Under the pieces are notes generated by a model. It worked only from the letters and a program-made list of their open reading frames with translations, ran no database searches and was not told where the DNA came from. Both the position numbers and the translations under genes were made by a program. A stretch of DNA of 42,753 bases from a virus. Shown here piece by piece: positions 2,076-33,657 of the stretch. Location: positions 1 through 42,753 of the IMG/VR virus record IMGVR_UViG_3300028829_004742; one strand, written 5' to 3'. Every line of letters begins with the position of its first letter. Within the stretch, counting starts at the first letter, position 1.

Positions 2076-4066
2076 GAGTTAAGTCGTTTAATGCTAGTGG
2101 CGGGGTTGAGCCCACTCCTGTGTGGCTTATGAATCTGGTTGCTCAGATGGGGTTCCAGTTGGAAGAGGAGGGGGTTCCTGAGGAGGAATTGTCTCCTGAT
2201 CAGACGCAGCCGTATCCGTTGTTGTCGGAGACTGACCCGTTGGGTATGGGTGAGGAATTGTCTCCTGATGAGCAGTTCCGGCAACAAGGTCCTCAGTTGA
2301 CAGCTGCCATCCTCGAGCAGAAATTTAGGGATGACGCTGGTTCTTCTGAGCCTGCTGGTGGTGGCGCCGGTGGTGGTGGCGGTGGCACATTTGTGCCACA
2401 GTTTACTGGCGCTCCTTACCCTGGGTATCCGAGTTTGCCTCAGCGTCCTGGCACCCCGCAGTCCACTTTGAGCAAATTGTATGAGAGTCAGCGTGCGGGT
2501 GGGCACCCTGGGGGTGTTGACAGTGAGATGCCCCTTAGGCCTGCTGGGCCTGCTGGCGGCGGCGGCGCCGGTGGTGGCGGTGGCGGCTCATTCGGCGGTA
2601 GTAGTGAGTCTTGGTTTGACGCAGTGTTTCGCCAGCCTCAAGATGAGAAGCCGTCGTTCGGGGAATTGGCACAGGGTTACGGGAGTAAGTGGAAGGAAGG
2701 GTTTGGTGACATATTGGGCTTTCTGGCTGGCGATCTTGCAGGTGACGGAGACGCTCCAGCGGGGCCTCCTAGGCCAAGTGGTGGCCTTTCGGGTATGGCG
2801 GATGCTCTGGGTGGAACTTCCACTCCTTACGCAAGGGAACCAGACACACGTCCGGTGGGCGCTGATGTCTTAAGGGATGACGCTGGTTCTCCTGGTTTCG
2901 CTCCGGATTACTTGCCGAGTGGCGAGCCTGCTCCTCCTCTTCCAGCGTCGATGGGCGGCCGCTGGACTTCGCCTGCTGGTAGGGCGTTGGCTAGGTCTGA
3001 GGAGGCTTCTAATGACGGCGAGTCGGGTGGCACTCCTATTCCGGGTGTGGACGGCATGTACTTGGAAGGGTTTGCGCCCTTGCCGCCGCCGCCGTTTAAC
3101 CAGTACACGGACCTGTTTGCTCCGTGGAAGGAGTCTTTCTACGGGCAGCAACGCCTTGATTTCTTGAACGAAACAATCGGCGGAATCCAGGGGGACTTGG
3201 ATGCTAGGAACAGTGGAGGTGACGTTGAATGGCAGACGTACAACAAGCTGCTCCGAGAGCGGGGGCAGGTACAGGCTGACATGTATATGGACAGCCGCAG
3301 GCATATACGGGAGATGACTAATGAGCTTCGTCAGGAAGCACACGAGTTGGGTGAAATGGTTCCTGACGAGCTGAATCAGACCCGTATGAATATGCAAATG
3401 GCGGATGTGCTGGGTGTGACTGTGGACGATCTTGCGGGCCTGTCCAGGTCAGAAGTGGAAATACTGTTTGAGCAGGGGTACCCGGAGTTTGAAAAACGTC
3501 AGATGGCGACAGATTTCATGTTGCAAAGCCGTACTGAGCAATACGATTTGGGTCTAGATACCACCCAAGGCGGGATGGGCGAGATATTGACGCCAGTAAT
3601 CGGCATGCAACTTGACGGAAAAATTGATGTGAACGACGACGGCTCTTGGGGAATGCCAAATTATGAAATGTTTGATGAGGCTGATCACTTGTTTTATGCG
3701 GCGTGGATGCTGCGTGCGGATTTGGACAATGCTGATTTCCCTAGAGAATCCTTGGATGAAGAACGCCCGGAGCCTGTGACGTACTTCGTGCCCGGAACGG
3801 AAACCGTAAATCCCGCATACGCCACTGCTGGCGAGTACATCGTCACTGGTCAGACCGTGTTTGATTCATACTTCGACGTTGGGCCTCAGGGTGCCTACCC
3901 GAACCCTGACTTTCACGCTGCTCTCGAGTCGCTGGGTTTAACAGGCGGTGCGCAAATGAGGGCCTTGTCGGGGATGGTCGCTGACCTTGTCAATAAGACC
4001 CCTAGCACGACTGACATGACCACGGCTCAGACGTGGTTCAGGGTCTTGGCTTTGGGGCGTGGCTAA
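2072..4066 (+). CDS. Gly-rich linker-containing virion protein (664 aa)
   Basis: This is a large protein with two poly-glycine linkers (about residues 90-102 and 165-180) separating low-complexity acidic and Pro-rich segments in the first 350 residues. A short duplication (LSPD preceded by EE) is visible at DNA level as an 18-base direct repeat at 2183 and 2252. From about residue 350 the protein is mostly helical (MYMDSRRHIREMTNELRQEAHELGEM) and looks folded. No enzyme motif is seen. It is coupled by ATGA to the gene before and by TAATG to the 1598-aa gene after. The order suggests a partner of that giant protein in an ejected or internal complex. The function is unproven. Confidence 0.8.
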   Translation: MRVKSFNASGGVEPTPVWLMNLVAQMGFQLEEEGVPEEELSPDQTQPYPLLSETDPLGMGEELSPDEQFRQQGPQLTAAILEQKFRDDAGSSEPAGGGAGGGGGGTFVPQFTGAPYPGYPSLPQRPGTPQSTLSKLYESQRAGGHPGGVDSEMPLRPAGPAGGGGAGGGGGGSFGGSSESWFDAVFRQPQDEKPSFGELAQGYGSKWKEGFGDILGFLAGDLAGDGDAPAGPPRPSGGLSGMADALGGTSTPYAREPDTRPVGADVLRDDAGSPGFAPDYLPSGEPAPPLPASMGGRWTSPAGRALARSEEASNDGESGGTPIPGVDGMYLEGFAPLPPPPFNQYTDLFAPWKESFYGQQRLDFLNETIGGIQGDLDARNSGGDVEWQTYNKLLRERGQVQADMYMDSRRHIREMTNELRQEAHELGEMVPDELNQTRMNMQMADVLGVTVDDLAGLSRSEVEILFEQGYPEFEKRQMATDFMLQSRTEQYDLGLDTTQGGMGEILTPVIGMQLDGKIDVNDDGSWGMPNYEMFDEADHLFYAAWMLRADLDNADFPRESLDEERPEPVTYFVPGTETVNPAYATAGEYIVTGQTVFDSYFDVGPQGAYPNPDFHAALESLGLTGGAQMRALSGMVADLVNKTPSTTDMTTAQTWFRVLALGRG

Positions 4067-7000
4067 TGCCGCCTCGTGATGCCGCAGGTCGGGTCATCAG
4101 GTCTGGCACTACCAATCTCCAAAAGTTTTTGGATACGGACCCGACTGATGTGGAAGCCCCGGACAACCCTGACTTCGAGCTTGTTATTCAGGAACTTGAG
4201 GGTCTCCGCCGTAATCCGAACCTGTCTATAGATACTGTCCGTCAGGTTGATGAGGTTTTGGCGGCTGCTCGTCAGGGTGATACTTCGGTTCTCTCCACGC
4301 CTATTGATGAGCAGTTGAACAGTAATCCGATCATGGATGTTCTCGGCAAGATCGGCAGTGGCCTGTGGGAGGGTGTGGATTTCCTTGGGTCTGGGGTCCG
4401 GTCTACTCTCAACCAGCTTGGGGCTGGCCTGCGTGCAGCGGGTTTGGATTCCGGGCAGGAGACTTTCACTGAGCAGGACGAGTTTGGTATTCAGGGCTGG
4501 CTGGCTGGCTTGTCTACTGGTAGTGACACTGTGTCAGGTAAGGACCTTTTTTGGGATAAGGACTATCAGGCAGAGGGTCTGGGTGATTCCGGTGTGTTTG
4601 GGGAGGGTCACAGTTTCAACATTCCTGACTGGATTCCTGTTCTCCCTGACAGGCTTCCCACGCCTGACATCGACACGATCATGGGTCTTGGTGCCGAGAT
4701 TGCGACTGATCCTTTAACGTTCCTTCGAGCGCCTGGCATTATCAATCAGGCGACAGGTCTGGCTAGCACTGGGTCTGTTCGTGGCGGGCGTGCCGGTCAC
4801 GCCCTGAGAATAAACAGGATGCTTCGGGGTAGTAAATATGACGAGCTGTCTCAGACTGTCAAGGATGCGGTGCAGGAGTCGGTGGAGCAGGGTGGTATCA
4901 CCACTCTGATCCGTGACGCTAAGCGTTCTACTTTGGAAGGGTTTGACGTTGAACTGTTGGACTCTCTGGGCGTGCAGCGGGGCCTCAACTTTGCGGGGGC
5001 GACTGTCCCTCACACGGAAGGGTTCGTTGAGATAATGGGTGCGCTCAGGCGGAGTGGCCCTTTGAGTGATCGGAAGTGGTCTCGGGCGTTTGACAAGCTG
5101 GCTGACGGCATTGAACAGTCGGGTATCAACAACTTCATAAAGTCGGTTGATAAAGATGGGCTCGCAAGGTTCACACCATTCGAGCAGGTGGGCTTGAAAG
5201 ATATTATAACGAGGGCTTCGCTTGTCCAGCGGCAGGGGATGGCGACGTCATCTGACATCATTGCTATCTTCACTGATAAGTACGGGCTGATAAAGGACAT
5301 TTCTGAGGACACGCTTCGTAAGACTTTGGAGAACGCCGATAAAAGTGTCCAAGTTACCAAGGACGCTATAGGTAAGAAGTCTGTCGATTTCGAGCGAGCG
5401 GTGGACGACGTTCTGTTGTTTGCTGCCAGGCAGGAACTGACTGTCCACCAGCTTGTGGAGGGGTTGGGAGAGTTTATTGACGAGGCAGGCTTGAAGCCCA
5501 GGGTGGGCCGGGATGGTTTGGGGTTGGCTGCGAACTCGAGGCAGTTCACTCGTGAAGGCGCTGCGGCTTCCCCGCTGGCAAGGTTTGTGGCTGACACGGA
5601 GAACTCTACGACGTCTCGCATCCTGGCCCCAGCGGTTGCTTGGGCGTTAGTAACTCTTGATTCTCATGCGACCAGACTGCTGCCTGGAATGGAGAGTGCT
5701 GATTCGTTGGAGCCGTGGCGGTACTTTGGTGCGGAGAGGCTAAAGGAAGCTGACGAGGAGCTTGCTTTACGGCTTGCCGGGAATCAGCCTGGTTTGTCCA
5801 AGCAAGGAATCTTGAATCGGGGTTTCGGTACTCTTCGCCAGTTGTGGGGAAATATTGCTGTTATCCAAGCTTTGGATGAAGCCGCCGAGTTTGGCTCTGA
5901 GGGTTTGAAGGGCTCGTTTTACAGGTTGTCTGATTCTCAGGATGCTTTGGCTGACGCCATGAAGACATTCGGGGTGGACGATCTGGGGCAACCTATTGAT
6001 GCGTTCGCTAAGGAGATCGGGGACCTTACAGGGTCGAGTGATCAGCTTCTGGGACGGATCAAATCTAAGGCGTTTTCAACGAATGACGCGAACCTGATCG
6101 GGGAAGACCCTGTGCAAGGGTTTGTTTCGTCAAGGTTTGATTCCTACATGGCGAAACTTCGGTCTGACAACATGGCAGACCTGAAGATGGGGGACATGAC
6201 CAAGCCGCTCGCCCGCATTGAAGCGCTGATCAGGACTGGGAAGCGGCATCAGCAGGCTTTGACAAACTCCATACAGGAGTACGCAAACAGTGTGGGTATC
6301 CAGGTTGGGTTGGAACGCAAGTTTGACGGGTTGAACTGGGAGCGAGCCCAGGAACTTTGGGGTGAAGGCGGTAGTCAAGGACGTGCCGCTCTTGGGAAAG
6401 AGGTTGATCGGATCATAAACGAGACCTGGTACAACCCTCGGCTGGGCACCCAGGAGGGTGGGGCTTTCGGTGACGCCAAACTGTTCGCTCATGAGGACCG
6501 GGCGATCATCCAGTTTGCGTTCAACAAGGACGAGTCGATGGTCCTGGGACCACTCGAAAATCTGACTAGGTGGATGGACGAGTGGACTGGTGCTGCGCAA
6601 GAAACAATGGAGCAGTACAGGCGGCATTTCTCCCCTGAGATTGCGGAGCAGCTACGCAACATTGACACGATCTTCTATGACGAACTCATCAACAACTCTG
6701 TGTTTGGCAACACGGTAGAATTAGTCCTTCAAGGTAAGGGTTACGGTGGTCAGTACAACCTCCAGTCTTTGACAAAGGATCAGATGGGGGCGTTGGCTGA
6801 GGACGTCTCTAGCGTCCACTTCAGTCTTCCTGGTGCCACAGACTTCTTTGGTGGTGCTACTGGCTGGGCTGACACCATGCTCGAGGCTTCCAAGTTCCTT
6901 AACCGGTTGCAGAAAGCACAGTTGGGCAACGAGTCTGTAGACAGGTTGTTTGGGGTGTTAGCGAAAGGCAACCGTACGTTCTTCCGTGGGCAGGCCGTGT

Positions 7001-8862
7001 TCGGTGCAGGGTTTATGCAGCGGAACAGTGCAGGTGCGTTCCGTGTGAACTTCCTGAATGGTGTCCGCACGTTTGGTGACGGCGGCTACCGGCAGTTTGG
7101 GGACGTGTACAACACGTCCCGTGCAGCACTGCGGGACGAGGCAATCAACCTGATGCGGCCCCGCACATCGGCGTTGTGGAAAGAGCTTGATGATGAGCTA
7201 GTCGAGCAGGCTCAAGAGCTTGCCTACTCGGGTGTGCTGATGTCCACATCGTCTGCCGGTAACCTTTTGGACCGTGCGTTTGAGGCGCAGGAACGCAGCA
7301 TTGGCGGTGGTGAAGACCCTGGCTTGTTGGGCAGGGCTGCTTCAGCTAACGCTAACGCCCTGTCCAGGGTGCAGAACACGATTGAACAGCCTGCGACATC
7401 GCTTGTTCAGACGATGACACAAGGCCCAGGCAAGCTGGGTCGTGGTCGTGGTGGCGCACTGGCATCCGAGATGACATTGGGTAACAGTCTGGATGGTTTG
7501 AAGGCTGCGACAAGGCAGGAGTTGGAGTCGTATTTCCGGGGTGCTCTCGCATGGTCAACCATGCGTAATGGCGGCACGATTGGTGACGGCATGCTGGCTG
7601 TGTCCCGCAACCATTTCGACTACTGGGATCTCACTACCACTGGTCAGATCGTTGACGAGTTCATGCCGTTCTTCCTGTTCCGTGGCCGCATGACCCGATT
7701 GACTGCCGAAATGAGCATGTCTTCACCTGGCGTCCCCTCCCAGATCCAACGCTTCAGGGACTCCCAGGAACAACGTGACCCGCTGGGCGCTGCCGGGAAC
7801 CTGTCCCGGTACACGTTCGGGGTCGGAGGGTACAAGGGTGTGGACTTCGAGTTCGACGTCTCTGACCCTTTAGACGACGTGGGCTTGGGCACCCTGCGTT
7901 CTGCCGCCAACTTCCTTTCAGCGCCAGGACGCAATCTGGACGAGTTCGTCCAACAAGAACTGCTTGAGCCTTTAAGCCCGATCATCCCCTGGCAGCAGTT
8001 GATCAACGTTGCTTCCAGAGGTGATGGTTATTACGAGGACGGGCTTGAACCTGTCGCCATGATGGATGGCATCCCTGCTGAGGTGATGAGGCAGGCTGTC
8101 AAAATCCCTCTGGTCAAAAACCTGTTGGAAGCAGGCGGTCTGATTGACACTCGTGACGGTGAACTTGTTTCCACTCCAGGGGCAATGAACTACTTCACTG
8201 AGATACTCCCACTGTTAGCGATTGTGGAGAAGGTCGGTGAAGGCAGCGGGTACTTCCAGGGGCTCGACGAAGACTTCGGGGACAACCCGACAGAAGCACA
8301 GTTGAAGTCTTTGGAAGTGGACCAGGGTAAGCGTGAACGCCAGATGTGGAACGTGCTGTTCAGCTTCTTCGGGTTCCCGTTCGAGGTCATTTCTCAGGAC
8401 CAGCGTGACCGTGTAGCTAAAGACATCGGCATGGAAATCCTTGACTACGACAAGGTTATTGATCAGCTGTCAGCTGTGCGTGACCGGCAGTACACGCAGG
8501 CTGCGGTGAACCAGGTAGCCAACCCTCTGGAAGAAGCTGTGGCTGGCGCAGCTAAACGTGCCGGTATCGACCAGATGTACGCTCAGGTGCCGTGGAACAA
8601 TTACCGTCTGGACTATGCCATCCCGTCGCCTGACGGCGGCATCCTCATGGCTGTGGAAGTCGACGGGTATGCGTTCCATTCATCCCCCGAGCAGAGAGCT
8701 TCGGATGCTGAACGGCAGGCAGCTATTGAAGCTGAGGGCATCATCGTGCATCGGGTGTTGTCTCGAGACTTCCGTGCTGACCCTGACGGTGAAGGCCAAC
8801 GCTTGAGGGATGCTTACGATGAGGCTATGCGTCGGTATGCTTTAATGTTTACCGGTGGTTGA
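4066..8862 (+). CDS. 1598-aa internal virion protein with C-terminal Vsr/DUF559-like nuclease domain
   Basis: This is the largest gene in the genome and the last of the late operon. The ATG overlapping the upstream stop (TAATG) is preferred to a GTG eleven codons earlier. Most of the protein is a long mixed helical chain without a motif I can name. The last ~95 residues resemble the DUF559/very-short-patch-repair branch of PD-(D/E)XK nucleases. They show R1514-L-D1516, then V-E1531-V-D1533-G with H1538, a DAERQ helix and a final IVHRVLSRDF strand. In known members the Asp and Glu residues bind the metal. Giant internal proteins in podoviruses (T7 gp16, N4 virion RNA polymerase) are ejected with the DNA, so this nuclease may enter the cell first. 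That is inference. The 3' end overlaps the convergent early operon by 14 bases. Confidence 0.85.
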   Translation: MPPRDAAGRVIRSGTTNLQKFLDTDPTDVEAPDNPDFELVIQELEGLRRNPNLSIDTVRQVDEVLAAARQGDTSVLSTPIDEQLNSNPIMDVLGKIGSGLWEGVDFLGSGVRSTLNQLGAGLRAAGLDSGQETFTEQDEFGIQGWLAGLSTGSDTVSGKDLFWDKDYQAEGLGDSGVFGEGHSFNIPDWIPVLPDRLPTPDIDTIMGLGAEIATDPLTFLRAPGIINQATGLASTGSVRGGRAGHALRINRMLRGSKYDELSQTVKDAVQESVEQGGITTLIRDAKRSTLEGFDVELLDSLGVQRGLNFAGATVPHTEGFVEIMGALRRSGPLSDRKWSRAFDKLADGIEQSGINNFIKSVDKDGLARFTPFEQVGLKDIITRASLVQRQGMATSSDIIAIFTDKYGLIKDISEDTLRKTLENADKSVQVTKDAIGKKSVDFERAVDDVLLFAARQELTVHQLVEGLGEFIDEAGLKPRVGRDGLGLAANSRQFTREGAAASPLARFVADTENSTTSRILAPAVAWALVTLDSHATRLLPGMESADSLEPWRYFGAERLKEADEELALRLAGNQPGLSKQGILNRGFGTLRQLWGNIAVIQALDEAAEFGSEGLKGSFYRLSDSQDALADAMKTFGVDDLGQPIDAFAKEIGDLTGSSDQLLGRIKSKAFSTNDANLIGEDPVQGFVSSRFDSYMAKLRSDNMADLKMGDMTKPLARIEALIRTGKRHQQALTNSIQEYANSVGIQVGLERKFDGLNWERAQELWGEGGSQGRAALGKEVDRIINETWYNPRLGTQEGGAFGDAKLFAHEDRAIIQFAFNKDESMVLGPLENLTRWMDEWTGAAQETMEQYRRHFSPEIAEQLRNIDTIFYDELINNSVFGNTVELVLQGKGYGGQYNLQSLTKDQMGALAEDVSSVHFSLPGATDFFGGATGWADTMLEASKFLNRLQKAQLGNESVDRLFGVLAKGNRTFFRGQAVFGAGFMQRNSAGAFRVNFLNGVRTFGDGGYRQFGDVYNTSRAALRDEAINLMRPRTSALWKELDDELVEQAQELAYSGVLMSTSSAGNLLDRAFEAQERSIGGGEDPGLLGRAASANANALSRVQNTIEQPATSLVQTMTQGPGKLGRGRGGALASEMTLGNSLDGLKAATRQELESYFRGALAWSTMRNGGTIGDGMLAVSRNHFDYWDLTTTGQIVDEFMPFFLFRGRMTRLTAEMSMSSPGVPSQIQRFRDSQEQRDPLGAAGNLSRYTFGVGGYKGVDFEFDVSDPLDDVGLGTLRSAANFLSAPGRNLDEFVQQELLEPLSPIIPWQQLINVASRGDGYYEDGLEPVAMMDGIPAEVMRQAVKIPLVKNLLEAGGLIDTRDGELVSTPGAMNYFTEILPLLAIVEKVGEGSGYFQGLDEDFGDNPTEAQLKSLEVDQGKRERQMWNVLFSFFGFPFEVISQDQRDRVAKDIGMEILDYDKVIDQLSAVRDRQYTQAAVNQVANPLEEAVAGAAKRAGIDQMYAQVPWNNYRLDYAIPSPDGGILMAVEVDGYAFHSSPEQRASDAERQAAIEAEGIIVHRVLSRDFRADPDGEGQRLRDAYDEAMRRYALMFTGG

Positions 8863-17080: not shown

Positions 17081-17521
17081 TTACATGACCGATAAAGGCC
17101 AGTCCAGGAAAGTCACCTTTGGAACCTCGAGCACACGAAACGCAGGCGGCGAAGTTACTGTCCGGGTTTCCTCCCCCAGCCAGCGGACATTGATTGGGCC
17201 AGTGCCATCATTCCACCGGTACCCGCAAACCCAGTGGGAGATACCCCCACCGGGCATGGTTCGCAGATGCTCAGCCATCGCCCATTGATCGGCAACACTC
17301 GCATTTTTCGCTCGAGTACCTACAAGGTCATTCCTGCCTGCATCCTCAGCCACCCAGGACCAAGTGGTATCTAGGAACTGCCACAATCCTGAGGCTGTCG
17401 AGGTCGGGTTTTCGATGTTGGCGACCCCGCTGGATTCACAGTCAATTATGCCATTCCATGCGCCAAAGTCTGTGACCGGCTGGGCCAACAGGAACATTGA
17501 AAGCGTCAACGACGCAATCAT
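17081..17521 (-). CDS. Rpf/transglycosylase-like muralytic enzyme, secreted (146 aa)
   Basis: A short hydrophobic N-terminus (IASLTLSMFLLAQP) looks like a signal peptide or anchor. The following domain has the lysozyme-like fold signature of resuscitation-promoting factors and soluble lytic transglycosylases. It includes W22-N-G-I-I-D-C-E29-S-S-G with E29 as catalytic acid, then STASGLWQFLDTTW, and a later CGYRWNDGTGP. It would cleave glycan strands of peptidoglycan. It is encoded on the early strand, away from the M15 endolysin, and is coupled by ATGA to the gene before it. Copy 2 of the repeated 13-base motif (17153-17165) lies inside its 3' part. It could weaken the wall during infection or act late in lysis. 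Confidence 0.8.
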   Translation of the reverse strand: MIASLTLSMFLLAQPVTDFGAWNGIIDCESSGVANIENPTSTASGLWQFLDTTWSWVAEDAGRNDLVGTRAKNASVADQWAMAEHLRTMPGGGISHWVCGYRWNDGTGPINVRWLGEETRTVTSPPAFRVLEVPKVTFLDWPLSVM

Positions 17522-18547: not shown

Positions 18548-18870
18548 TTTGGCAGGTCGATTGCCTTCATTGTGGCTACTCCGCAACCACGGTGCATTGA
18601 CGTTTCTTCGCCAGAGCCTTCGTATTCGTTGTCATGCTTAGAAGCCAGCAGGTCTATCTGTGCCGCTTCTAGGCATGCAATGAGTTTGGCGATGAGAGGT
18701 GCTGCATCTTGACGCAAGAAGTAACGGGTCCTGTGCTCAGCGATTTCGATATGGAGCGTTGCATACCGACCGTGGTCAGTGTCCCATTGTTTGACGTCAG
18801 TACTCATCTTGAGGTCAGTGCCTCTGTCTTGGTGGACATCGGTGTACGAAATGCTTGTACGTTCGGTCAT
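18544..18870 (-). CDS. Hypothetical early protein (108 aa)
   Basis: The ATG used has a GGGAAA ribosome site seven bases upstream. An in-frame ATG 19 codons further up would start inside a palindrome-bearing spacer. The sequence looks folded, alternating strands (GRYATLHIEIAEHRTRYFLRQ) and a helix (APLIAKLIACLEAAQIDLLASK). It ends with a short Cys/His-poor tail. This strand-helix layout recalls small phage proteins of unknown function that follow sliding-clamp genes. Nothing more can be said. It is translationally coupled to the membrane protein gene after it. Confidence 0.75.
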   Translation of the reverse strand: MTERTSISYTDVHQDRGTDLKMSTDVKQWDTDHGRYATLHIEIAEHRTRYFLRQDAAPLIAKLIACLEAAQIDLLASKHDNEYEGSGEETSMHRGCGVATMKAIDLPK

Positions 18871-18915
18871 GTTTGTTTCCCTTTGCTTATGTGGTGCTGG
18901 TTTAGCGCCATCACT

Positions 18916-18944
18916 CAGCACACCCACTCGAGGCGGGTGTGCTG
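18916..18944. terminator. Perfect 10-base hairpin after the sliding-clamp gene
   Basis: CAGCACACCC pairs perfectly with GGGTGTGCTG around a nine-base loop. It lies just downstream of the clamp stop and before the next minus-strand gene. No T tract follows on either strand, so a role in mRNA stabilisation or partial attenuation is as likely as termination. Confidence 0.55.
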
Positions 18945-18966
18945 GCTGACGGTTCTAACGTGCGTG

Positions 18967-19665
18967 CTATTCTGCCACTTCGTATTTGACGGGCATGAGG
19001 AGCATGAAAGCTTGTAGGTCGGCGTGGTGATCCCGAGTGAAATGCCAGATTGTAGGTGTGCGCGTGTCTACGTAACGGTTGATTAGCACCATCTTGGAAT
19101 CACGCACGTTCTTTACACTTGTGCCATTCATGCTGGGGTGACGCAGTTTGCCCACGTCAGACAGGAACGCAGGGTTGAACGCCGGAGGCGGGCAACCAGG
19201 GTTGGTGGCGTCGAGTGCGGGCACAAGGCCTTGCCATTGAGGGTAGTCACCTTCAATGCTGGGACTCCAGAAGGTTGGCCGCTCTTCCAATGTGGTCGAG
19301 GAGCCTTCCCGCAGTTCAATCACGTTGTCATCTTCGTTGATGCTGACAAAGCCTGGTGTCATTTTCTTGACTGCTGCTAGCATGCCTTTGATGTCCCCGA
19401 CAATGATCCTGCGTTGGAAAGCGTTTTGAAACGCCGAGTTTTTCGAGGGTAGCGGGCTTTGGCTGGTTTGTATTTTGGTGCTGACCAGACGGTAGGAGTC
19501 GGTGGCGGTGATTGACAATTCCAGCGTGCTGTTTGATTCTTTTTCAACCACGGTGGTTTCAAACACTGCGCCTTCGAGGATTGGTCGTGACGGGTCTTTT
19601 GAGGTGGCGATGAGTGCATTGTGCAATGCGATCTCGAGTGCGGTGCGTTCAATACGGATAGTCAT
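18967..19665 (-). CDS. dnaN: DnaN-like DNA polymerase sliding clamp, short form (232 aa)
   Basis: The protein has beta-clamp hallmarks. There is an N-terminal TALEIALHNALIATSKDPSRPILEGAVFE segment, then the ATDSYRLV strand typical of domain I. VGDIKGMLAAVKKM follows, and a C-terminal PTIWHF...LQAFMLLMPV end like the final strand of bacterial DnaN. Clamps encircle DNA and tether polymerases. Cellular beta is about 370 aa in three domains. This one has room for about two, near the size of T4 gp45. The internal ATG is chosen for its AAAGGAAAAC ribosome site. No DNA polymerase is recognised in the genome, so it probably binds the host polymerase or the phage exonuclease and helicase. Confidence 0.88.
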   Translation of the reverse strand: MTIRIERTALEIALHNALIATSKDPSRPILEGAVFETTVVEKESNSTLELSITATDSYRLVSTKIQTSQSPLPSKNSAFQNAFQRRIIVGDIKGMLAAVKKMTPGFVSINEDDNVIELREGSSTTLEERPTFWSPSIEGDYPQWQGLVPALDATNPGCPPPAFNPAFLSDVGKLRHPSMNGTSVKNVRDSKMVLINRYVDTRTPTIWHFTRDHHADLQAFMLLMPVKYEVAE

Positions 19666-19770
19666 TTGTTTTCCTTTGCTTTGCGGGACGCCCAATACGT
19701 CCCGGTATCACTTGTAACCCATGATAGTCGTCGGTGACTAGCATGTCTATTGCTTAATAGTTAACGAAAT

Positions 19771-19804
19771 GGGGTGAAAGCCGCCAACAGGCAGCTCACA
19801 CCCC
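19771..19804. terminator. Hairpin between small zinc gene and clamp gene
   Basis: GGGGTG and CACCCC close a stem with an inner AGC(T)GCC/GGC(G)GCT helix on the minus strand. The whole sits in the 175-base gap upstream of the clamp gene. The minus-strand tail is ATTTCGTT, only weakly T-rich. It could end the upstream small-gene transcript or act as an attenuator. Promoter elements for the clamp gene should also lie here, but I see no clear -35/-10 pair. Confidence 0.45.
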
Positions 19805-19840
19805 CGGTGTCGTTGTGTCGTTTGCGTGTCGTAACGTCAG

Positions 19841-20005
19841 CTACGACACCGCTCTTTCGTGAGGTTCAACTCGCCCGCCTGTCCAATCTGCGAACAGATC
19901 TTTGGGGTCAGTCAAGTCTTTTTCACACACGGCACACGCTACGTACCGTGATTTGTCACGGTACCGGCGCACTAGCCCGTTGTTTCCGGGGCATTTATTC
20001 TCCAT
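19841..20005 (-). CDS. Small zinc-finger-like protein (54 aa)
   Basis: The protein starts MENKCPGNNG and has C5, C24 and C27 (YVACAVCEKDL) plus H49, a plausible single zinc site. The ATG overlaps the end of the gene before by 11 bases, matching the coupled style of this cluster, and the reading frame is open for exactly 55 codons. Proteins of the form CPGN...RYxxK...CxxCxK are widespread small actinophage proteins. Their function is unknown. Confidence 0.75.
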   Translation of the reverse strand: MENKCPGNNGLVRRYRDKSRYVACAVCEKDLTDPKDLFADWTGGRVEPHERAVS

Positions 20006-22905: not shown

Positions 22906-22997
22906 GTTGATACGAGTCCTTTCAAGACCTCGAGAAACAGGAGAAACCCCCCAAACGTGACAACAGCAATTGCTGTCGCCTTCAAATAATCAAGCAT
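22902..22997 (-). CDS. 31-aa single-TM micropeptide coupled to ArdA
   Basis: The 32-codon frame encodes MLDYLKATAIAVVTFGGFLL and a further LFLEVLKGLVST, a single membrane helix with short polar ends. Its ATG lies within the stop region of the 95-aa zinc gene (ATGCTTGA) and its TGA overlaps the ArdA ATG (ATGA), so all three are linked in translation. The tight overlaps and clean hydrophobic pattern support a real gene. Function is unknown. It may act on the envelope or merely couple translation. Confidence 0.62.
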   Translation of the reverse strand: MLDYLKATAIAVVTFGGFLLFLEVLKGLVST

Positions 22998-23277
22998 TAG
23001 CTGCCTCCTTCAAAGCCGCCCTACACGCTGCAATCCCTGCACGACTCGTCACAGTCGACACAATTCGCTCGTAACGTGTGAACTCAGTCCAAACTTCACT
23101 GTCGTTGTACGGGTCAACCTCCCCCTCGATGGCGTACTCGTAAGGGCAGTAGTCATTAGCGAACAACTCGATGTTGCGCTCAATACATGACTCACAGATG
23201 GCGTCGGTAGGGGTTGTGAGAGTGAAACACTCGAAGCAATCCTCGCAAAAGCGGAATCGTTTAACTGTCTTAGGCAT
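22990..23277 (-). CDS. Zinc-finger protein, first gene of the small-gene early cluster (95 aa)
   Basis: The N-terminus has a compact cluster (FCEDCFECFTL, then CESC about 15 residues on), a likely zinc ribbon. A Tyr/Glu-rich acidic middle (FANDYCPYEYAIEGEVDPYNDSEVW) and a helical basic end follow. The region upstream is the hairpin-rich spacer, with copy 4 of the repeated 13-base motif about 41 bases before the ATG, so this is probably the first gene of its transcript. The ribosome site is weak (AGAAAG). Early host-directed regulation is possible, but not shown. Confidence 0.75.
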   Translation of the reverse strand: MPKTVKRFRFCEDCFECFTLTTPTDAICESCIERNIELFANDYCPYEYAIEGEVDPYNDSEVWTEFTRYERIVSTVTSRAGIAACRAALKEAANA

Positions 23278-23693
23278 GATGGTTACTTTCTGGTTGAAGA
23301 TTTGCGAAATACTGCGGAGTTACTGTCCGGTGGGCCACTGGCCCTTGCCCCGCCCCCTGGGGCGGCGGCTGGGAGGGCGCCTCGGGGGTGCGTGTCATCC
23401 GGGAAGGCACAGAATTTGCGCCTGGGTGTTTCCCCGCTGCCGGCTGATTTGCAGCCGGCCACTGAGGCTGTGAACCTCAGAGTGTGTTTGACTTTTCTTT
23501 TTACCTATTGCGGAGGGGGGTCCCTCGTCCTTCGGGGACCCCCTGGAGCATGGCTACGCTGACTGCCAAACTTGTGGATCTCAGGCTGGGCTTCCCCTCG
23601 CCGGAGGCGCCGCCGGAGGCGTAGCTTTGGCCCTTCCGTCCTTCTGGGCTTTGCCCGCTGCAAGCGCCGCCGGAGGCGAAATTTTGGGCAGCA
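23278..23693. other. Non-coding GC-rich spacer packed with hairpins
   Basis: No convincing gene is seen on either strand over about 415 bases. Perfect or near-perfect hairpins follow one another: GGGCCA-C-TGGCCC (23332-23344), GCCGGCTG-N5-CAGCCGGC (23439-23459), CTGAGG-N7-CCTCAG (23462-23480), a 10-base GGGGGTCCC-type stem (23515-23544), and two copies of GCGCCGCCGGAGGCG (23607-23621, 23664-23678), each with an internal CGCC-GGA-GGCG fold. Base composition is clearly richer in G and C than the neighbouring phage genes. It could be a replication origin, a transfer/packaging site or an inserted foreign segment. Confidence 0.6.
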
Positions 23694-23730
23694 AAAAGCC
23701 CGCCACCCTCGACGGGTGGCGGGCTTGCTG
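23694..23730 (-). terminator. Strong rho-independent terminator of the 276-aa gene
   Basis: A perfect 13-base stem (AAGCCCGCCACCC with GGGTGGCGGGCTT) encloses a five-base loop and is followed on the minus strand by TTTTTGC. It lies about ten bases after the stop of the ribbon-helix-helix-like gene and isolates that gene from the early cluster downstream, so the two are separate transcription units. Confidence 0.88.
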
Positions 23731-23736
23731 GGGGGT

Positions 23737-24567
23737 CTAGAGACTGCCGGTGATCTGCTGGTAGGCGATCACGTCCTCGCCTCCGTAGCTGCTGTGATCG
23801 GCTCGGCTGCCTTCTGACATGTCGTCACGGTGGAACTCGTCTCCGGGTAGCGTCGGGTCCTCCTCGACGTGGCCGAGGGTCTCGCCTACTCGGTCCAACG
23901 GCTGCGCCATCACTTCGGCCAGCATTGCGGCCATTTCGTCGGGCGTGTGGTCCTTGATCATGTCCCAGTCGAGGCCGTCGTTGTCCATGCGTCGAGCGAG
24001 TGCGTCGACCTGGAGCGTGTTGAGCGACTCGGGCAGAAGCTGGATACCGACCGTGATTGCTGCGGCGAGAAGCTCGACGTTGTCGTCCGTTGCGGGCATT
24101 GATGCCTTGCGCTTCTGGTCGGCTCGGTAGTCGTCAAGGCGAAACTGCTTCGTCTCTCGGCTTCCGGTCATCGAGAGGCCCAGCTGGGCGAGTCGGGCGT
24201 CGATCTGGTCGTTCGTGCCGTAGCGCTTCTTCTGGTTTAGGTCGATGTAGTAGTGGCGGATGCGGTGCGAGAGCTCTTGGCTCGTGCCCCTGTCATCCTG
24301 GCCAAGCTCGGCGAGGATCGCCCGCTTGCGGGTGATGCTGAGGCGGGACAGTGCAACCGGGTCCTCGGCTGGCGTCGGCCAGCCTTGGGGCTTCGGGGCT
24401 CGCTTGCGAGCTGCGCTCTGGAATGCGATCTGTTGGTGAAAGTCGGCGATGATACGAGTCGAGGCGCTTTCGCCTCGGGTTGTGCGCAGGAAGACGGCGA
24501 GCTTGAACAGGGTGCGGGCGTCTTCCTTGTTGATCCGTAAGGTGTAGGTGTTCTCAGGGTTGTTCAT
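23737..24567 (-). CDS. Ribbon-helix-helix-like protein of unknown function (276 aa)
   Basis: The first 45 residues (TYTLRINKEDARTLFKLAVFL, then a Ser/Thr-Arg helix) have the strand-helix-helix look of an RHH DNA-binding domain or a plasmid control protein. The rest is helical and charged, with an SRETKQFRLDDYRADQKRK stretch and an acidic tail. No enzyme motif is visible. The ATG at 24567 is preferred to one twelve codons upstream, as GAAAGC precedes it. The gene is flanked by hairpin-rich spacers, has its own strong terminator, and is GC-richer than its neighbours, so it may have been acquired from a plasmid or host. A replication initiator, partition or regulatory protein are all possible. 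None is proven. Confidence 0.7.
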   Translation of the reverse strand: MNNPENTYTLRINKEDARTLFKLAVFLRTTRGESASTRIIADFHQQIAFQSAARKRAPKPQGWPTPAEDPVALSRLSITRKRAILAELGQDDRGTSQELSHRIRHYYIDLNQKKRYGTNDQIDARLAQLGLSMTGSRETKQFRLDDYRADQKRKASMPATDDNVELLAAAITVGIQLLPESLNTLQVDALARRMDNDGLDWDMIKDHTPDEMAAMLAEVMAQPLDRVGETLGHVEEDPTLPGDEFHRDDMSEGSRADHSSYGGEDVIAYQQITGSL

Positions 24568-24603
24568 TGTTTTGCTTTCTACTGATGCGGCTACTTGCTG
24601 CAC

Positions 24604-24957
24604 ACAGTGACTTCTAAGATTCGACGAAAGAGGGGGAATCCAATGTAGACCGTCGAGAATTTCAATTGTTCTGCTCCGATAGGAGCTGGGAGAAGAATTT
24701 CAATTGTCGTCGCAGCTGCGTTGGATAGCGTGCCTCAGTCCGACTTGCGGTTAAGTGGGAGGTAAGCGGTCCCCCTCTCGTTGATATCGTGATGACACTG
24801 TGTGTGTGATTAACAGTGAGGGCCTACTTGAGCGACCCGTCATACCGTCGCTCGGGTAGGAGCCCCGAACGGTGTCGGAAGACGGTGCTCCGGGTGTGAG
24901 CCAGCGCCCTTCTGGCTCGCAGAGCTGGGACCGGAGCCAAGCAAGGTAGTACCGCCG
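24604..24957. promoter_or_regulatory. Upstream region of the 276-aa gene with direct repeats and hairpins
   Basis: No gene is seen. The part nearest the 276-aa gene holds two exact 14-base repeats (AGAATTTCAATTGT, 24656-24669 and 24694-24707) with a GCTCC-GATA-GGAGC hairpin between them. In the minus direction each repeat contains TTGAAA, a possible -35 element, with TATCGG or TGGATT 16-17 bases on. Further out are GAGCGAC-N10-GTCGCTC (about 24831-24854) and GAGCCAG-N7-CTGGCTC (24898-24918). The pattern fits an operator for self-regulation or iteron-like origin repeats. Confidence 0.55.
24656..24707. repeat. Pair of 14-base direct repeats flanking a small hairpin
   Basis: AGAATTTCAATTGT occurs twice, 38 bases apart start to start, close to a whole number of helix turns (about 3.6). 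Each copy contains the palindrome CAATTG. The segment is AT-rich in an otherwise GC-rich spacer and stands 90-140 bases upstream of the ribbon-helix-helix-like gene start. Confidence 0.7.
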
Positions 24958-24990
24958 CTTTAGGAGCCAGCGCCCTTCTGGCTCTTAAAG
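24898..24990. repeat. Duplicated 21-base hairpin (GAGCCAG-N7-CTGGCTC)
   Basis: The same 21 bases, loop included (CGCCCTT), occur at 24898-24918 and 24964-24984. The second copy extends to a 13-base stem with CTTTA/TAAAG outer arms and overlaps the stop codon of the 75-aa gene, so it can fold as a terminator-like structure for that leftward gene, though without a T tract. Identical loops in both copies suggest duplication or selection on the loop sequence. Confidence 0.75.
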
Positions 24991-25212
24991 GAGTGCGGCG
25001 GGTATTGTTTTGACCTTGCCCTTTCGCCCTTCTACCAGGGATTGCCACTCCGACTCTTTGCTCGACAATGAATCCATTGAATCGAGCAAGTCTTCGCACT
25101 CCTGGCAAAACCTGTTCTTAACCACCACAGGACGTTTCTCGCAACACCAACAAGTGACCGGACCACGCAGGAAACCAACACGCACAAGCGCTTTCTTAAC
25201 AACATTAACCAT
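24985..25212 (-). CDS. Small zinc-binding protein (75 aa)
   Basis: A basic N-terminus (MVNVVKKALVRVGFLRGP) leads to CWCCEKRPVVVKNRFCQEC, two CxxC-type pairs forming a zinc knuckle. A charged Ser/Glu/Lys helical end follows. A good AAGG ribosome site precedes the ATG. It is the first leftward gene of the genome and is bracketed by hairpins on both sides (a GGGGACCCC-type hairpin upstream, a 13-base stem at its stop). A small DNA-binding regulator made first after entry is plausible. Confidence 0.7.
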   Translation of the reverse strand: MVNVVKKALVRVGFLRGPVTCWCCEKRPVVVKNRFCQECEDLLDSMDSLSSKESEWQSLVEGRKGKVKTIPAALL

Positions 25213-25650
25213 TGTCTTGCCTTCTCCATTCTCGGAGGGGGACCCCTCACAACGTGGGGGTCCCCTGTAGAGACACAGTCCTCAGACACGTCGAGCACAA
25301 ACCAACACGCCTGCCCTTTGCCCCGCAGGGTCGGCCGAAGGCCGTGCCCTTCCGCCCTTGACCTTCCCTATACGGGCGAAGCCCGTAACATGCGGCACGC
25401 CCAGCAAGCCACTAGCAAACGAACGAGCACAGCGAGAGAGAGCAGCGCACTACGACAACCAAACAACCGCCTGATCGGCTTGGCCGGACGGCCAGGCTCG
25501 TCAGAGACTGGACGGCAGGACAAACGAGCATGCTCGAGATGACCAACCCTCCAATCCCACCCCCCGTACCCCCGCTCCAAAATCCGCGAAGTTAGTACAC
25601 AGGGGTGGGGGCGGGCTCCACTAGGATTGGTGTTTGTGGTTTTTGCTTAG
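25213..25650. other. Divergent non-coding region with UUCG-type hairpins
   Basis: No gene is supported on either strand. Hairpins include GGGGACCCC-N9-GGGGTCCCC (about 25238-25266), CGGCC-GAA-GGCCG (25333-25345), TACGGGC-GAA-GCCCGTA (about 25373-25389), TGGCCG-GA-CGGCCA and the palindrome GAGCATGCTC. Read leftward, several have C(UUCG)G-like stable loops. This gap lies between the first leftward gene and the rightward late promoter, so early leftward promoters should be here, but I cannot point to one convincingly. The hairpin density and composition match the spacer at 23.3-23.7 kb. Confidence 0.5.
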
Positions 25651-25654
25651 TTGT

Positions 25655-25684
25655 TTGACGTGGCTTGACAGGGGTGTGTAGACT
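25655..25684 (+). promoter_or_regulatory. Putative sigma70-type promoter for the rightward late arm
   Basis: TTGACG, an 18-base spacer and TAGACT match a primary-sigma promoter well (five of six in -35, four of six in -10). It is the first such pair before the rightward genes. A 6-base hairpin (CACCCT-CGGT-AGGGTG, 25741-25756) lies in the transcribed leader before the HTH gene. Confidence 0.45.
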
Positions 25685-26215: not shown

Positions 26216-26686
26216 ATGAACGTGAATGATTTTGGGGTTATCCCACCAGAGTTGCCTTCTGTGCAGTCTGCTAATGCTCGTGAACGTGAGTTGTTGGAGT
26301 GGGTGACTACTCCTCTTGATTTGCGGGAGGAAGGTGAAAAGTCTTTGTCTGGCTGGGCTCCCAAACATGGGATGAACGCAACTACTGCTTTGGCGTGGCT
26401 GGCTAAACCGCATATGCGTTTGGCTCGGCGTGCTTTGGCTTTAGAGCGTGGTTTGGCTGATTACAAGGTTGGCGTGATTCTGGATGCAGCGTATTCGAAG
26501 GCGATTCAGGGTGATCAGCGTGCGATGTCAACGTTTTTGAATTATTACAAGGTTGAGGCTGAGAGTCAGGCTGTTTCTGAGTCTGCTGGGGGTGTTGATG
26601 GTTCGGCTACAGTGGTTAAGCCTGTAGCTGAAATGTCTCCTGCTGAGATTGAGGCAAAACTTGCTGAGCTTGATAGCAGCGTTTGA
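26216..26686 (+). CDS. terS: Probable terminase small subunit (156 aa)
   Basis: The protein has an HTH-like middle (LSGWAPKHGMNATTALAWLAKPHMRLARRALALERGL), a helical oligomerisation-like stretch (YKVGVILDAAYSKAIQGDQRAMSTFLNYYKVEAE) and an acidic C-terminal helix (SPAEIEAKLAEL). This order, size and the phrase about a helix followed by QRAMSTFLNYYK fit small terminases that recognise DNA for packaging and feed TerL. TerL itself is 5.4 kb downstream, separated by the receptor-binding genes. The match is by features, not a clear signature, so confidence is moderate. A plain regulator is the alternative. Confidence 0.6.
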   Translation: MNVNDFGVIPPELPSVQSANARERELLEWVTTPLDLREEGEKSLSGWAPKHGMNATTALAWLAKPHMRLARRALALERGLADYKVGVILDAAYSKAIQGDQRAMSTFLNYYKVEAESQAVSESAGGVDGSATVVKPVAEMSPAEIEAKLAELDSSV

Positions 26687-30466: not shown

Positions 30467-31525
30467 ATGGTTCAAAATCTGAGTCGTCGTGAAACGCTAC
30501 TCAACCGTGGCGTTCAAAACCACATTTTTGGTGCTTTAGAGTCTGAAAACTATGCGGCAGAACAGTTTTCGACGTTGCTGGGCGGTTTGGGCAACGTAAT
30601 GCGCGGGTCATACAGCACAGTTGTTGGTGGCTACCAAAATGAGGTTTCCGAAAATTTAAGTTATTCAACTCTACTAGGCGGCACTTCCAACGTGCTGCTG
30701 GCAGGTGCTGACAATTCAACTGTTGTCGGCGGACAGCAGAACAGTGTTTCTACTTCAGATTCAGCGGCCGTGGTGTCGGGTGAGAGTAACTCTGTAACGT
30801 CGTCTAGTGATTCGGTCACTGTCGGGGGGCTGGAAAACATAATGGATAGTGCCCCTGGATCTGTGAGCCTCGGGGGCGGGCTAAAAGTTTCGGGACAACC
30901 GGTTTCAGGCAACACAACGTCAACAACACGATCTTCTACGATGTTGGGCGGATACGGGAACCTTATTCAAGGCGGTTATCAAGCCGGTATCTTTTCTGCT
31001 TGGCAAAGCGAAATTGATGCCCTGTCAGGTGGGGGAACCACTGAGTTCTCAACTATTTGCGGCGGCACTTCAAACGAAATAAGGTCAGCTAACTCAGGCA
31101 TTCTCGGAGGGCATTCGAACGTCATAAATCAGAGCGGTTACGGTTGGAACGCTATTGTTGGTGGCGGTGAGAACACTATGGCAAACTCACAGTTTTCTGC
31201 AATTGTGGGGGCTGGCGGTTTAAACACTCCTACCCAGATGACGTATGCTAATAGGTGCGTAATTATTGGTGGCGGGTTTCAGTCTTTGACTGGCACCAGT
31301 GGTACTAACACAGAAAATTCAGCAATTCTGGGCGGGATTCTTAACTCTGTAACTCATTCCCGTTCGGTTGCAATTGGTGGCACTGGCCTTTCTAGTGACG
31401 CCACAGACACAGTGTTTATGAGCAAAGTGCATATAGAGAATCTGCCTACTTCTAGTGCTGGTTTGTCGGCAGGAACTTTGTGGGTTAGCGGGACTTCTCC
31501 AAACAAATATGTTCGCATGGCTTAG
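30467..31525 (+). CDS. Second YadA-like beta-roll fibre (352 aa)
   Basis: The protein consists largely of repeated units of about 14-20 residues with a GG-N pattern (TLLGGLGNVMRG, TVVGGYQNEVS, TLLGGTSNVLL, TVVGGQQNSVS, AVVSGESNSV). This is the hallmark of the left-handed beta-roll in trimeric autotransporter heads and phage tail tips. It lacks the coiled-coil shaft of the 755-aa fibre and ends in a short Ser/Gly-rich tip (SSAGLSAGTLWVSG). It would be a second receptor-binding spike. It is AT-richer than the genes around it. Confidence 0.82.
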   Translation: MVQNLSRRETLLNRGVQNHIFGALESENYAAEQFSTLLGGLGNVMRGSYSTVVGGYQNEVSENLSYSTLLGGTSNVLLAGADNSTVVGGQQNSVSTSDSAAVVSGESNSVTSSSDSVTVGGLENIMDSAPGSVSLGGGLKVSGQPVSGNTTSTTRSSTMLGGYGNLIQGGYQAGIFSAWQSEIDALSGGGTTEFSTICGGTSNEIRSANSGILGGHSNVINQSGYGWNAIVGGGENTMANSQFSAIVGAGGLNTPTQMTYANRCVIIGGGFQSLTGTSGTNTENSAILGGILNSVTHSRSVAIGGTGLSSDATDTVFMSKVHIENLPTSSAGLSAGTLWVSGTSPNKYVRMA

Positions 31526-31536
31526 GATAAATATTC

Positions 31537-31911
31537 ATGGATAAAAGAACTGCTACACGTATTCCGTTGCAAACGTTTCGAGACGCGTTCTCTGACGATG
31601 CACGAGAGATCACTGTTGCCCCTCTCCATAAAGGCAGTGATCAGATTGCAACCGGCAACTTGGCGGCGGTTTATTCTGACGGCAGGTTGCTTGGGTTGCT
31701 GGCTTGGAGCGATCTGGTCATGCTTATCAGCGAGACTGACGGAAAGAATTTCGGTTTCTTAAAAGTCCCTGCTAGCACCGGAGATAGCCTCGAGTTGCCC
31801 CCGACTGTAGAGCAGTTGGTCTGGAACTGGCAGGATGCGTTGGACGCTCAAAAAGAAAGCCATTTGTCTGAGATAGCAAAGATTGAATCCGAGATTGCTG
31901 AAGTCCAGTAA
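31537..31911 (+). CDS. Hypothetical protein downstream of fibre (124 aa)
   Basis: The N-terminal part looks like a small beta domain (REITVAPLHKGSDQIATGNLAAVYSDGRLLGLLAWSDLVMLISET). The C-terminus is a coiled coil (DALDAQKESHLSEIAKIESEIAEVQ). No family is recognised. It overlaps the next gene (TAATG). It may be a fibre chaperone or baseplate component, judging only by its neighbours. Confidence 0.7.
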   Translation: MDKRTATRIPLQTFRDAFSDDAREITVAPLHKGSDQIATGNLAAVYSDGRLLGLLAWSDLVMLISETDGKNFGFLKVPASTGDSLELPPTVEQLVWNWQDALDAQKESHLSEIAKIESEIAEVQ

Positions 31912-32036
31912 TGGATCTCGCAGAGCTTTGGGATTTAGTGAAAGACGAGCCAATGGGTCCAAAGGTTGGGTTTGTTTTGGTTACGTTAATTAACCATGTT
32001 GAGGCCATAACTAAGCAGCCTGCGGAAGAAGAGTAA
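31911..32036 (+). CDS. 41-aa protein before TerL
   Basis: The short frame MDLAELWDLVKDEPMGPKVG continues FVLVTLINHVEAITKQPAEEE. It starts by overlapping the previous stop and ends five bases before TerL. It forms one amphipathic-to-hydrophobic helix and an acidic tail. The tight packing supports translation. Function is unknown. Confidence 0.6.
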   Translation: MDLAELWDLVKDEPMGPKVGFVLVTLINHVEAITKQPAEEE

Positions 32037-32040
32037 TTTC

Positions 32041-33657
32041 GTGGATGCTCGGGAAGAGCTTGAGCAAGAGCTTGAGTGGAAACGCTGCGAAGCCAACATC
32101 TTTTATTTCCTTGAGCACTATTGGCATATCAGTGTGCCTGGTTCTTCACCTTTGTTTGAATTGCGCCCTCCACAAATTGACGCTCTTGAAGTTTGGCTCA
32201 CAGGTCAAGATTCCATTTGTTTGAAGGCCAGGCAGATTGGCTGGTCCACCCTGTTTGCAGGTTTTGCTTTTTGGAAAGTGTTTTTTAACGACAACTTTTC
32301 AGTTGGTGCTCTTTCTCGTACTGAGAAAGAAGCACAGAAGCTCCTGAAAAAATCAAAGTACGGGTATGCCCGTTTGCCGGAATGGTTTAAACAGCGCGGT
32401 CCTGCGTTAGACAAAGAAAACCTTTTGGAGTTGACGTTTGATAATGAGTCTCGGATCGAGGCAATGGCTTCCCGTGAGAACGCTGCCCGTGGTGACACAT
32501 TTGCTTTGATTGGTGTTGACGAATGGGCGTTCCTAAATGACCCTGAAGAAGCTTGGGCTTCTATCAAACCTGCTGCTGATATAGGCGGACAGATTATTGG
32601 GATTTCGACAGCTAAAGGCTACGGGAACTGGTTTCATCGTTTCTATAAAGCGGCTGAAGCTGGCAATAATGGTTTTAAGGCCCTGTTCTACAACTGGCAA
32701 TCAGTGCCGGGTCGTGACGAAAAGTGGTATCAGGAACAGACTGTCAGCATGGAGCCTTGGCAGCTTCACCAGGAATTTCCTACGACTGTTGATGAGGCGT
32801 TTGTTTCGTCTGGCGATGTTGTCTATGAGACTGACATGTTGAAGGAACGCATCCAGGTTTTGCATCCGTTGTATGTTGGCAATGTCACTATGACTACACG
32901 TCAAGAAGTGGACATGTCGTTGGCTCCTGATGGGCCAACTTCTGTGTGGGAGTTGCCTCAGCCTGGCATGACGTATGTGATTGGCGCAGACGTCGCTGCT
33001 GGTGTCCCCGATGGCGACTATTCCACTGCGACTGTAATTAAGGCAAACACGAACAAAGTTGTTGCTGTCTTTAGGCAGCGCCTTGTCCCTGAGGATTTTA
33101 GCGAGTCTCTGGATTTACTGGGCCGCTGGTTCAACAACGCTTATCTGGCAGTGGAAAGAAACAATCACGGGATCACGGTATGTCGTGATCTGTCGCAGAA
33201 GTTGCAGTATCCGAATCTGCATTTTCATACGAATGAGAACATCCAACGTTCGTCGTCCCGCAATGTCGGCTTTCAAACAACTGTAGCTACAAAGCCTTTA
33301 CTGGTTAACGAGTTGGGTGCGGCTTTGCGTCGTGGGAAACTCATCATTCATTGCGCAGACACTTTGTCTGAGTTGATTGGTTTTCAGCGCCAGACATCTA
33401 AGTCTGGACAGTATGAAGTGTTTAACGGGTATCCGCATGATGATCTTGTCATGTCCTTAGGCATAGCAAACATGATGCTGTTTGAAGTAAATGTTACGGT
33501 GTCCCAAATTGAGGAAAAGCCTGACGGGTTGACCTGGGACATTTGCGAGCGGATGATGGCTGCTGCGCCTAAGTCTTCAGCGAAGATGATGGCGGGTTAC
33601 AATTACAAACAGAAACCAGAAGAGAATCCGAGGTTTACTGTCTATGGACCAGTGTGA
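32041..33657 (+). CDS. terL: Terminase large subunit (538 aa)
   Basis: This is the packaging motor ATPase-nuclease. Walker A is K63-A-R-Q-I-G-W-S-T. Walker B is F-A-L-I-G-V-D160-E161. The coupling motif is IIGISTAKG (185-193). The C-terminal RNase H-like nuclease has D317 (VIGADVAAG), E372 (AVERNNHG) and D467/D468 (PHDDLVMSLG). GTG is the start, with GGAAGAAGAG in front. It cuts and pumps DNA into the prohead through the portal encoded two genes downstream. It is separated from the TerS candidate by the receptor-binding genes, an unusual order. Confidence 0.95.
   Translation: MDAREELEQELEWKRCEANIFYFLEHYWHISVPGSSPLFELRPPQIDALEVWLTGQDSICLKARQIGWSTLFAGFAFWKVFFNDNFSVGALSRTEKEAQKLLKKSKYGYARLPEWFKQRGPALDKENLLELTFDNESRIEAMASRENAARGDTFALIGVDEWAFLNDPEEAWASIKPAADIGGQIIGISTAKGYGNWFHRFYKAAEAGNNGFKALFYNWQSVPGRDEKWYQEQTVSMEPWQLHQEFPTTVDEAFVSSGDVVYETDMLKERIQVLHPLYVGNVTMTTRQEVDMSLAPDGPTSVWELPQPGMTYVIGADVAAGVPDGDYSTATVIKANTNKVVAVFRQRLVPEDFSESLDLLGRWFNNAYLAVERNNHGITVCRDLSQKLQYPNLHFHTNENIQRSSSRNVGFQTTVATKPLLVNELGAALRRGKLIIHCADTLSELIGFQRQTSKSGQYEVFNGYPHDDLVMSLGIANMMLFEVNVTVSQIEEKPDGLTWDICERMMAAAPKSSAKMMAGYNYKQKPEENPRFTVYGPV

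Follow-up and report, generated by a model that had tools for sequence, protein, structure and literature searches.

Only two genes are carried by the island at positions 23278-25650 of the window, by which we mean the entire 42,753-nt stretch of viral DNA analyzed; both lie on the minus strand and encode proteins of 276 and 75 amino acids. The features of the locus and of related loci are presented in Table 1. The end of the window is a copy of its start, and given this exact direct terminal repeat of 144 bp the genome of 42.6 kb looks complete. The virus is an uncultured phage, and its host is probably an actinobacterium. A PF06737 transglycosylase-like domain, known from resuscitation-promoting factors, was found at 17081-17521 and suggests an actinobacterial host. 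Leftward from 25212 the genome carries replication-type early genes (antirestriction ArdA, a DnaB-like helicase, primase, exonucleases and a RusA-like resolvase), while rightward from 25848 lie terminase, portal and capsid genes, in a late block which runs across the ends to 8862. Because replication genes lie to the left and structural genes to the right, the island makes up the leading part of the early block, as far as the late promoter, and is the early/late divergence point of the genome. One late gene, at 4033-8862, encodes a 1609-aa protein in which the only recognized domain is a C-terminal restriction endonuclease of the MTES_1575 type (E 9e-15). No integrase was found among the approximately 35 proteins scanned, a set which covered only part of the small ORFs.

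Table 1. Coordinates of features at the locus (window positions) and of hairpin loci in relatives (contig and position).
Feature	Position	Strand	Details
95-aa Cys-rich ORF, first native early gene downstream of the hairpin-rich stretch	22990-23277	-	Native codon usage, GC3 0.58
Hairpin-rich non-coding stretch between terminator and next early gene	23278-23692	-	63% GC; RNA fold z -3.35
Hairpins of this stretch	23350-23365, 23439-23459, 23462-23480, 23516-23543		Hairpin scan
Intrinsic terminator of the 276-aa gene	23696-23726	-	13-bp perfect stem, then TTTTT
276-aa ORF, acquired gene	23737-24567	-	GC 63%, GC3 81%; candidate ribbon-helix-helix N-terminus
14-bp direct repeat, copy 1	24656-24669		Candidate operator/promoter element of the 276-aa gene
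14-bp direct repeat, copy 2	24694-24707
Hairpin	24830-24853		7-bp stem, 10-nt loop; hairpin scan
Twin hairpin, copy 1	24898-24918		GAGCCAG-AAGGGCG-CTGGCTC on the minus strand
Twin hairpin, copy 2	24964-24984		Immediately after the stop codon of the 75-aa ORF; flanks lengthen the stem with a bulge
75-aa ORF, first gene of the leftward early block	24985-25212	-	Two CxxC pairs (zinc-ribbon-like)
Divergent intergenic region	25213-25654		Hairpins 25238-25265 and 25371-25387; RNA fold z -2.9; detrended GC-skew minimum at 25587
Late promoter	25655-25684	+	TTGACG-18-TAGACT; equivalents in five relatives
Small late ORF, 59 aa, helix-turn-helix	25848-26025	+	phrog_5497, E 5e-5; relatives have a small unrelated ORF in the same place
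Small-terminase-position protein, first shared late gene	26216-26686	+	Comparison with relatives
Hairpin arrays of relatives	L104:9100-12700 (G017), L100:9250-12400 (G008), L095:6000-10300 (G006), L101:1-4500 (G009), L106:3200-7000 (G018), and L114-L193
Shine-Dalgarno sequence in perfect-hairpin loop just before ATG	L104:9370-11540, L100:9520-11140, L095:7019-8840		For example TAATTAC-TGGAG-GTAATTA-TG

The earlier note had described the island as differing in composition from the phage on both sides and as a unit closed by a strong terminator. Its trinucleotide distance (0.277) is indeed the largest of any 2.4-kb stretch (median 0.147), but its dinucleotide relative abundance is not extreme, and the outlier is the 276-aa gene, which has the strongest GC3 deviation of the genome (0.81 versus at most 0.65 in any other gene). 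The flanking 75-aa and 95-aa genes look native in composition. The terminator is real, but closes the 276-aa gene and not the entire stretch. The gene itself was undetected in every phage relative examined, some of which may be fragments. Its GC3, its own terminator and this absence support the view that the 276-aa gene was acquired, and it is to this gene that the earlier suggestion of an acquired segment applies. The simplest reading is of an inserted, separately terminated and possibly self-regulated gene. No promoter for it passed a sigma-70 consensus scan; the candidate elements are the repeats at 24656-24707.

With respect to the protein, no significant match to any family in Pfam, NCBIfam, PHROG or PDB was observed, virion and metabolic families included, and no relatives were recovered from phages, plasmids, viral contigs or genomes at the available sensitivity, at which peptide-pattern scans catch close relatives only. 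An AlphaFold model of the whole protein from the single sequence had a pLDDT of 43 and was rejected as unusable. For the first 62 residues an extended segment followed by helices at 14-29 and 35-55 is predicted (pLDDT 70), a topology which is compatible with a ribbon-helix-helix monomer. The best match to that fold was PrpA with an E value of 8.2, which is not significant, and no other fold was matched significantly. The DNA-binding reading of the earlier note is thus compatible with the predicted topology but has neither a sequence-family match nor a significant fold match behind it.

Perfect stems with loops of 3-10 nt were counted in 23278-25650 and compared with 100 shuffles. For stems of at least 6 bp, 13 were observed versus 4.7 expected; for at least 7 bp, 10 versus 1.1 (shuffle maximum 6); and for at least 8 bp, 4 versus 0.34. 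The clear excess is limited to perfect stems, as those with one G-U, A-C or other mismatch occur at 1.2-1.7 times expectation. By folding energy the island is only modestly unusual (mean z at 24-26 kb of -1.21 on the plus and -0.76 on the minus strand, versus -0.58 and -0.51 for the genome), so that "hairpin-dense" is correct and "heavily structured" would overstate the case. The 18-20 kb region is equally structured by this measure. There, 18801-19920 has strong island-like predicted structure on the minus strand, with z of -5.7 at 18881 and -5.6 at 19761.

Two kinds of repeat stand out within the island. A 21-bp hairpin, GAGCCAGCGCCCTTCTGGCTC, is present twice in letter-identical form at 24898 and 24964, the second copy lying in a segment (24961-25120) with a fold z of -5.6 on the plus strand. 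No further copy was found in the window at up to 3 mismatches, and the exact 21-mer had no match in either the genome collection or 2.9 million viral contigs. The 14-bp direct repeat AGAATTTCAATTGT is exact, with its two copies starting 38 bp apart at 24656 and 24694, in an AT-rich patch which sits within a long imperfect inverted repeat. The dozen or so short hairpins, some of them duplicated, and the 14-base repeats described earlier were therefore confirmed, as were the two genes and the terminator. The motif GAAGGRCG occurs five times on the island minus strand, which is that of the early transcript, not at all on its plus strand and four times in the rest of the genome. The five copies span 23526-25033, and four of them lie in hairpin loops, one with a stem of just 4 bp. 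A CRISPR-like repeat was rejected, the sole repeated unit being the two-copy 21-bp hairpin with unrelated flanks, and CsrA-type sites were rejected since there is no GGA in the twin loops, which read AAGGGCG. No Rfam family was detected at gathering thresholds, and no tRNA or tmRNA was found.

The terminase alignment identified about 80 relatives, and that of the small terminase five close ones (L014/L113, L015, L016, L019 and L112). All five have the same divergence, a gene-poor gap of approximately 1 kb and a late promoter followed by a small ORF and the small-terminase gene. This promoter reads TTGACT-17-TAGACT, with TAGGCT in L014 and L015; for the window promoter at 25655, 0.08 such matches would be expected by chance. 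In the closest relatives (the L014 group) the control region is thus present, but without the hairpins and without the 276-aa gene; in place of hairpins the intergenic region bears TGTGA-N6-TCACA sites, of which a locus has at most three. At L016:1904-2144, L019:299-539 and L112:5077-5249, these CRP/GlxR-like sites stand in tandem upstream of the conserved late promoter. Such operators were rejected for the window, from which they are absent.

The observed divergence, the late promoter common to relatives, the foreign composition, the terminator and the excess of hairpins argue for the island being an early/late control region in which a lytic-type phage genome has received a GC-rich cassette. 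This is the best-supported account and, in our judgment, somewhat favored to be the correct one. Leftward early transcription would start within 25213-25650 and read the 75-aa gene, and rightward late transcription would begin at the promoter at 25655-25684. The cassette would consist of the 276-aa gene, the repeats upstream and its own terminator, a "moron"-like unit which is probably expressed alone and may regulate itself by way of the twin 14-bp repeats, located 90-140 bp upstream. Some of the hairpins would serve in termination or attenuation, a function established for 23696-23726 only. On the transcribed strand, the twin 21-bp hairpins and the loops with GAAGGRCG resemble RNA elements that a protein may read. 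The early promoter, regulation by the 276-aa protein and an RNA role of the hairpins are what we infer from this arrangement. A cassette alone does not explain the hairpins that flank it on both sides, including those at 25238-25387, and no gene-free homologous site is close enough at the DNA level to fix the exact ends of the insertion.

The cassette resembles the moron genes of temperate phages in being an extra gene of deviating GC content with its own terminator, placed between phage genes and absent from relatives. The definition of a moron includes regulation independent of other phage genes (PMC7380047), whereas for the 276-aa gene an independent promoter and a benefit to the host are only putative, and no sign of lysogeny was seen here. 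As in the early/late divergent control regions of tailed phages, divergent blocks surround a promoter-bearing intergenic region with a late promoter common to relatives, although the window is far richer in hairpins than its closest, operator-bearing relatives. Short perfect hairpins in an early region also recall the promoters of the N4 virion RNA polymerase, and at 25371-25387 a stem of 7 bp encloses a 3-nt GAA/TTC loop. N4, however, has three such promoter hairpins with conserved bases and a giant virion RNA polymerase (PMC4496689), whereas here no polymerase was recognized and the hairpins have no common sequence. As it stands, the island shows the control region of an uncultured phage taking in foreign genes and hairpin-rich DNA.

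Hairpins are also abundant in more distant relatives. In the long contigs G006, G008, G009, G017 and G018, a few kb of the early block hold 8-19 perfect hairpins per 2 kb (0.7-1.4 expected), and this zone starts at or within about 2 kb of the early/late switch; for G009, this proximity depends on joining the contig ends into a circle. The arrays, with stems of 7-9 bp and loops mostly of 3-4 nt (range 3-5 nt), sit inside early genes encoding an AAA ATPase and a DUF7192 protein. Among 38 non-redundant homologues of the ATPase gene, 24 carry at least five perfect hairpins, and the pooled 38 genes have 250 versus 25 in synonymous-codon shuffles; hairpin density peaks around the ATPase start and falls over 3 kb. 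Fifty-two hairpin sites are common to two or more genomes, many with compensating changes. Imperfect stems in the ATPase arrays numbered 76 versus 52 expected with G-U, 48 versus 38 with A-C and 255 versus 180 with other mismatches, so that strong enrichment is confined to perfect stems, unlike in typical structured RNA. Selection at the RNA level through a G-U preference was unsupported in the window and in the relatives. That G-U is not preferred over other mismatches would point to DNA hairpins, or a mutational process, operating upon genome entry or at first transcription. An RNA-level feature was nevertheless observed in G008 and G017, where a hairpin directly ahead of the start codon carries the ribosome-binding sequence of many early genes in its loop (13-20 such hairpins in G017 and G008, by overlapping counts, and none in the window).

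These arrays raise the alternative that the island represents, in this phage, a feature of the whole clade, which in more distant relatives takes the form of dozens of perfect stems (7-9 bp, loops of 3-5 nt) near the start of the early block and would act as DNA or RNA early in infection. The window zone adjoins the early/late switch in the corresponding position, and its fold excess (10 versus 1.2) is similar to that in the 38 relatives. Here too the excess is limited to perfect stems and G-U stems are unfavored, and the relatives retain hairpins at aligned sites with compensating changes. Nonetheless we hold this alternative to be unlikely: the closest relatives have no such zone, the native coding sequences of the window show no clear excess, and the window lacks both ribosome sites in hairpin loops and the ATPase gene which bears the arrays; in addition, its loops are mostly of 5-10 nt rather than 3-4 nt. 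That the island is a diverged form of such early-block arrays, in which compensating changes occur even within genes, is accordingly given as a tentative suggestion. A search of open-licence full texts returned no description of hairpin arrays of this kind, and those of the relatives are probably worth a separate study. If general, mini-hairpins kept by compensating changes would amount to a further information layer in double-stranded DNA phage genomes.

A structured replication origin had also been proposed. The hairpins and AT-rich repeats would then form a site of duplex melting where the helicase and primase products load. The early block does encode a DnaB-like helicase and a primase, the AT-rich repeats lie inside the long inverted repeat, and the cumulative GC skew, once detrended, has its minimum at 25587, with the minimum at or near the early/late switch in relatives too. 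This minimum alone does not show an origin, because gene direction switches at the same point, early genes to the left and late genes to the right, and transcription alone could cause it. With no DnaA-box cluster, and with hairpins missing from the closest relatives, the origin is possible but unproven, and we regard it as rather improbable, somewhat more so than the clade-wide array.

The other part of the first interpretation, a maintenance module of plasmid origin (phage-plasmid) in which the 276-aa protein would act as Rep or in partition, would fit the acquired composition, the hairpins, the candidate DNA-binding N-terminus that is predicted and the lack of an integrase among the proteins scanned, but is very improbable, since neither the island DNA nor, by tblastn, the 276-aa protein matched anything in 72,556 plasmids or 50,697 phages, so that no plasmid homologue with the same hairpins came to light, no Rep, ParA, ParB or relaxase family was matched, and the short repeats, of two or three scattered copies, form no iteron or parS-like array. 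The first interpretation is thus partly supported, in that "acquired" holds for the 276-aa gene, and rather than a plasmid the island is probably a control region with a recently acquired foreign gene.

Further observations concern the terminase region. At 30739-33474 and 31537-31911 the window is 80-85% identical to L016 and L019 in DNA sequence, and one protein encoded there is unchanged over 110 residues, while the genomes of L016 and L019 are otherwise much more diverged from the window; this suggests recent exchange of the terminase neighborhood. In L003, L004, L005 and L006 the matches to the terminase large subunit are broken near residues 276-296, with a gap of approximately 530 bp in L006, which suggests an intein or intron.
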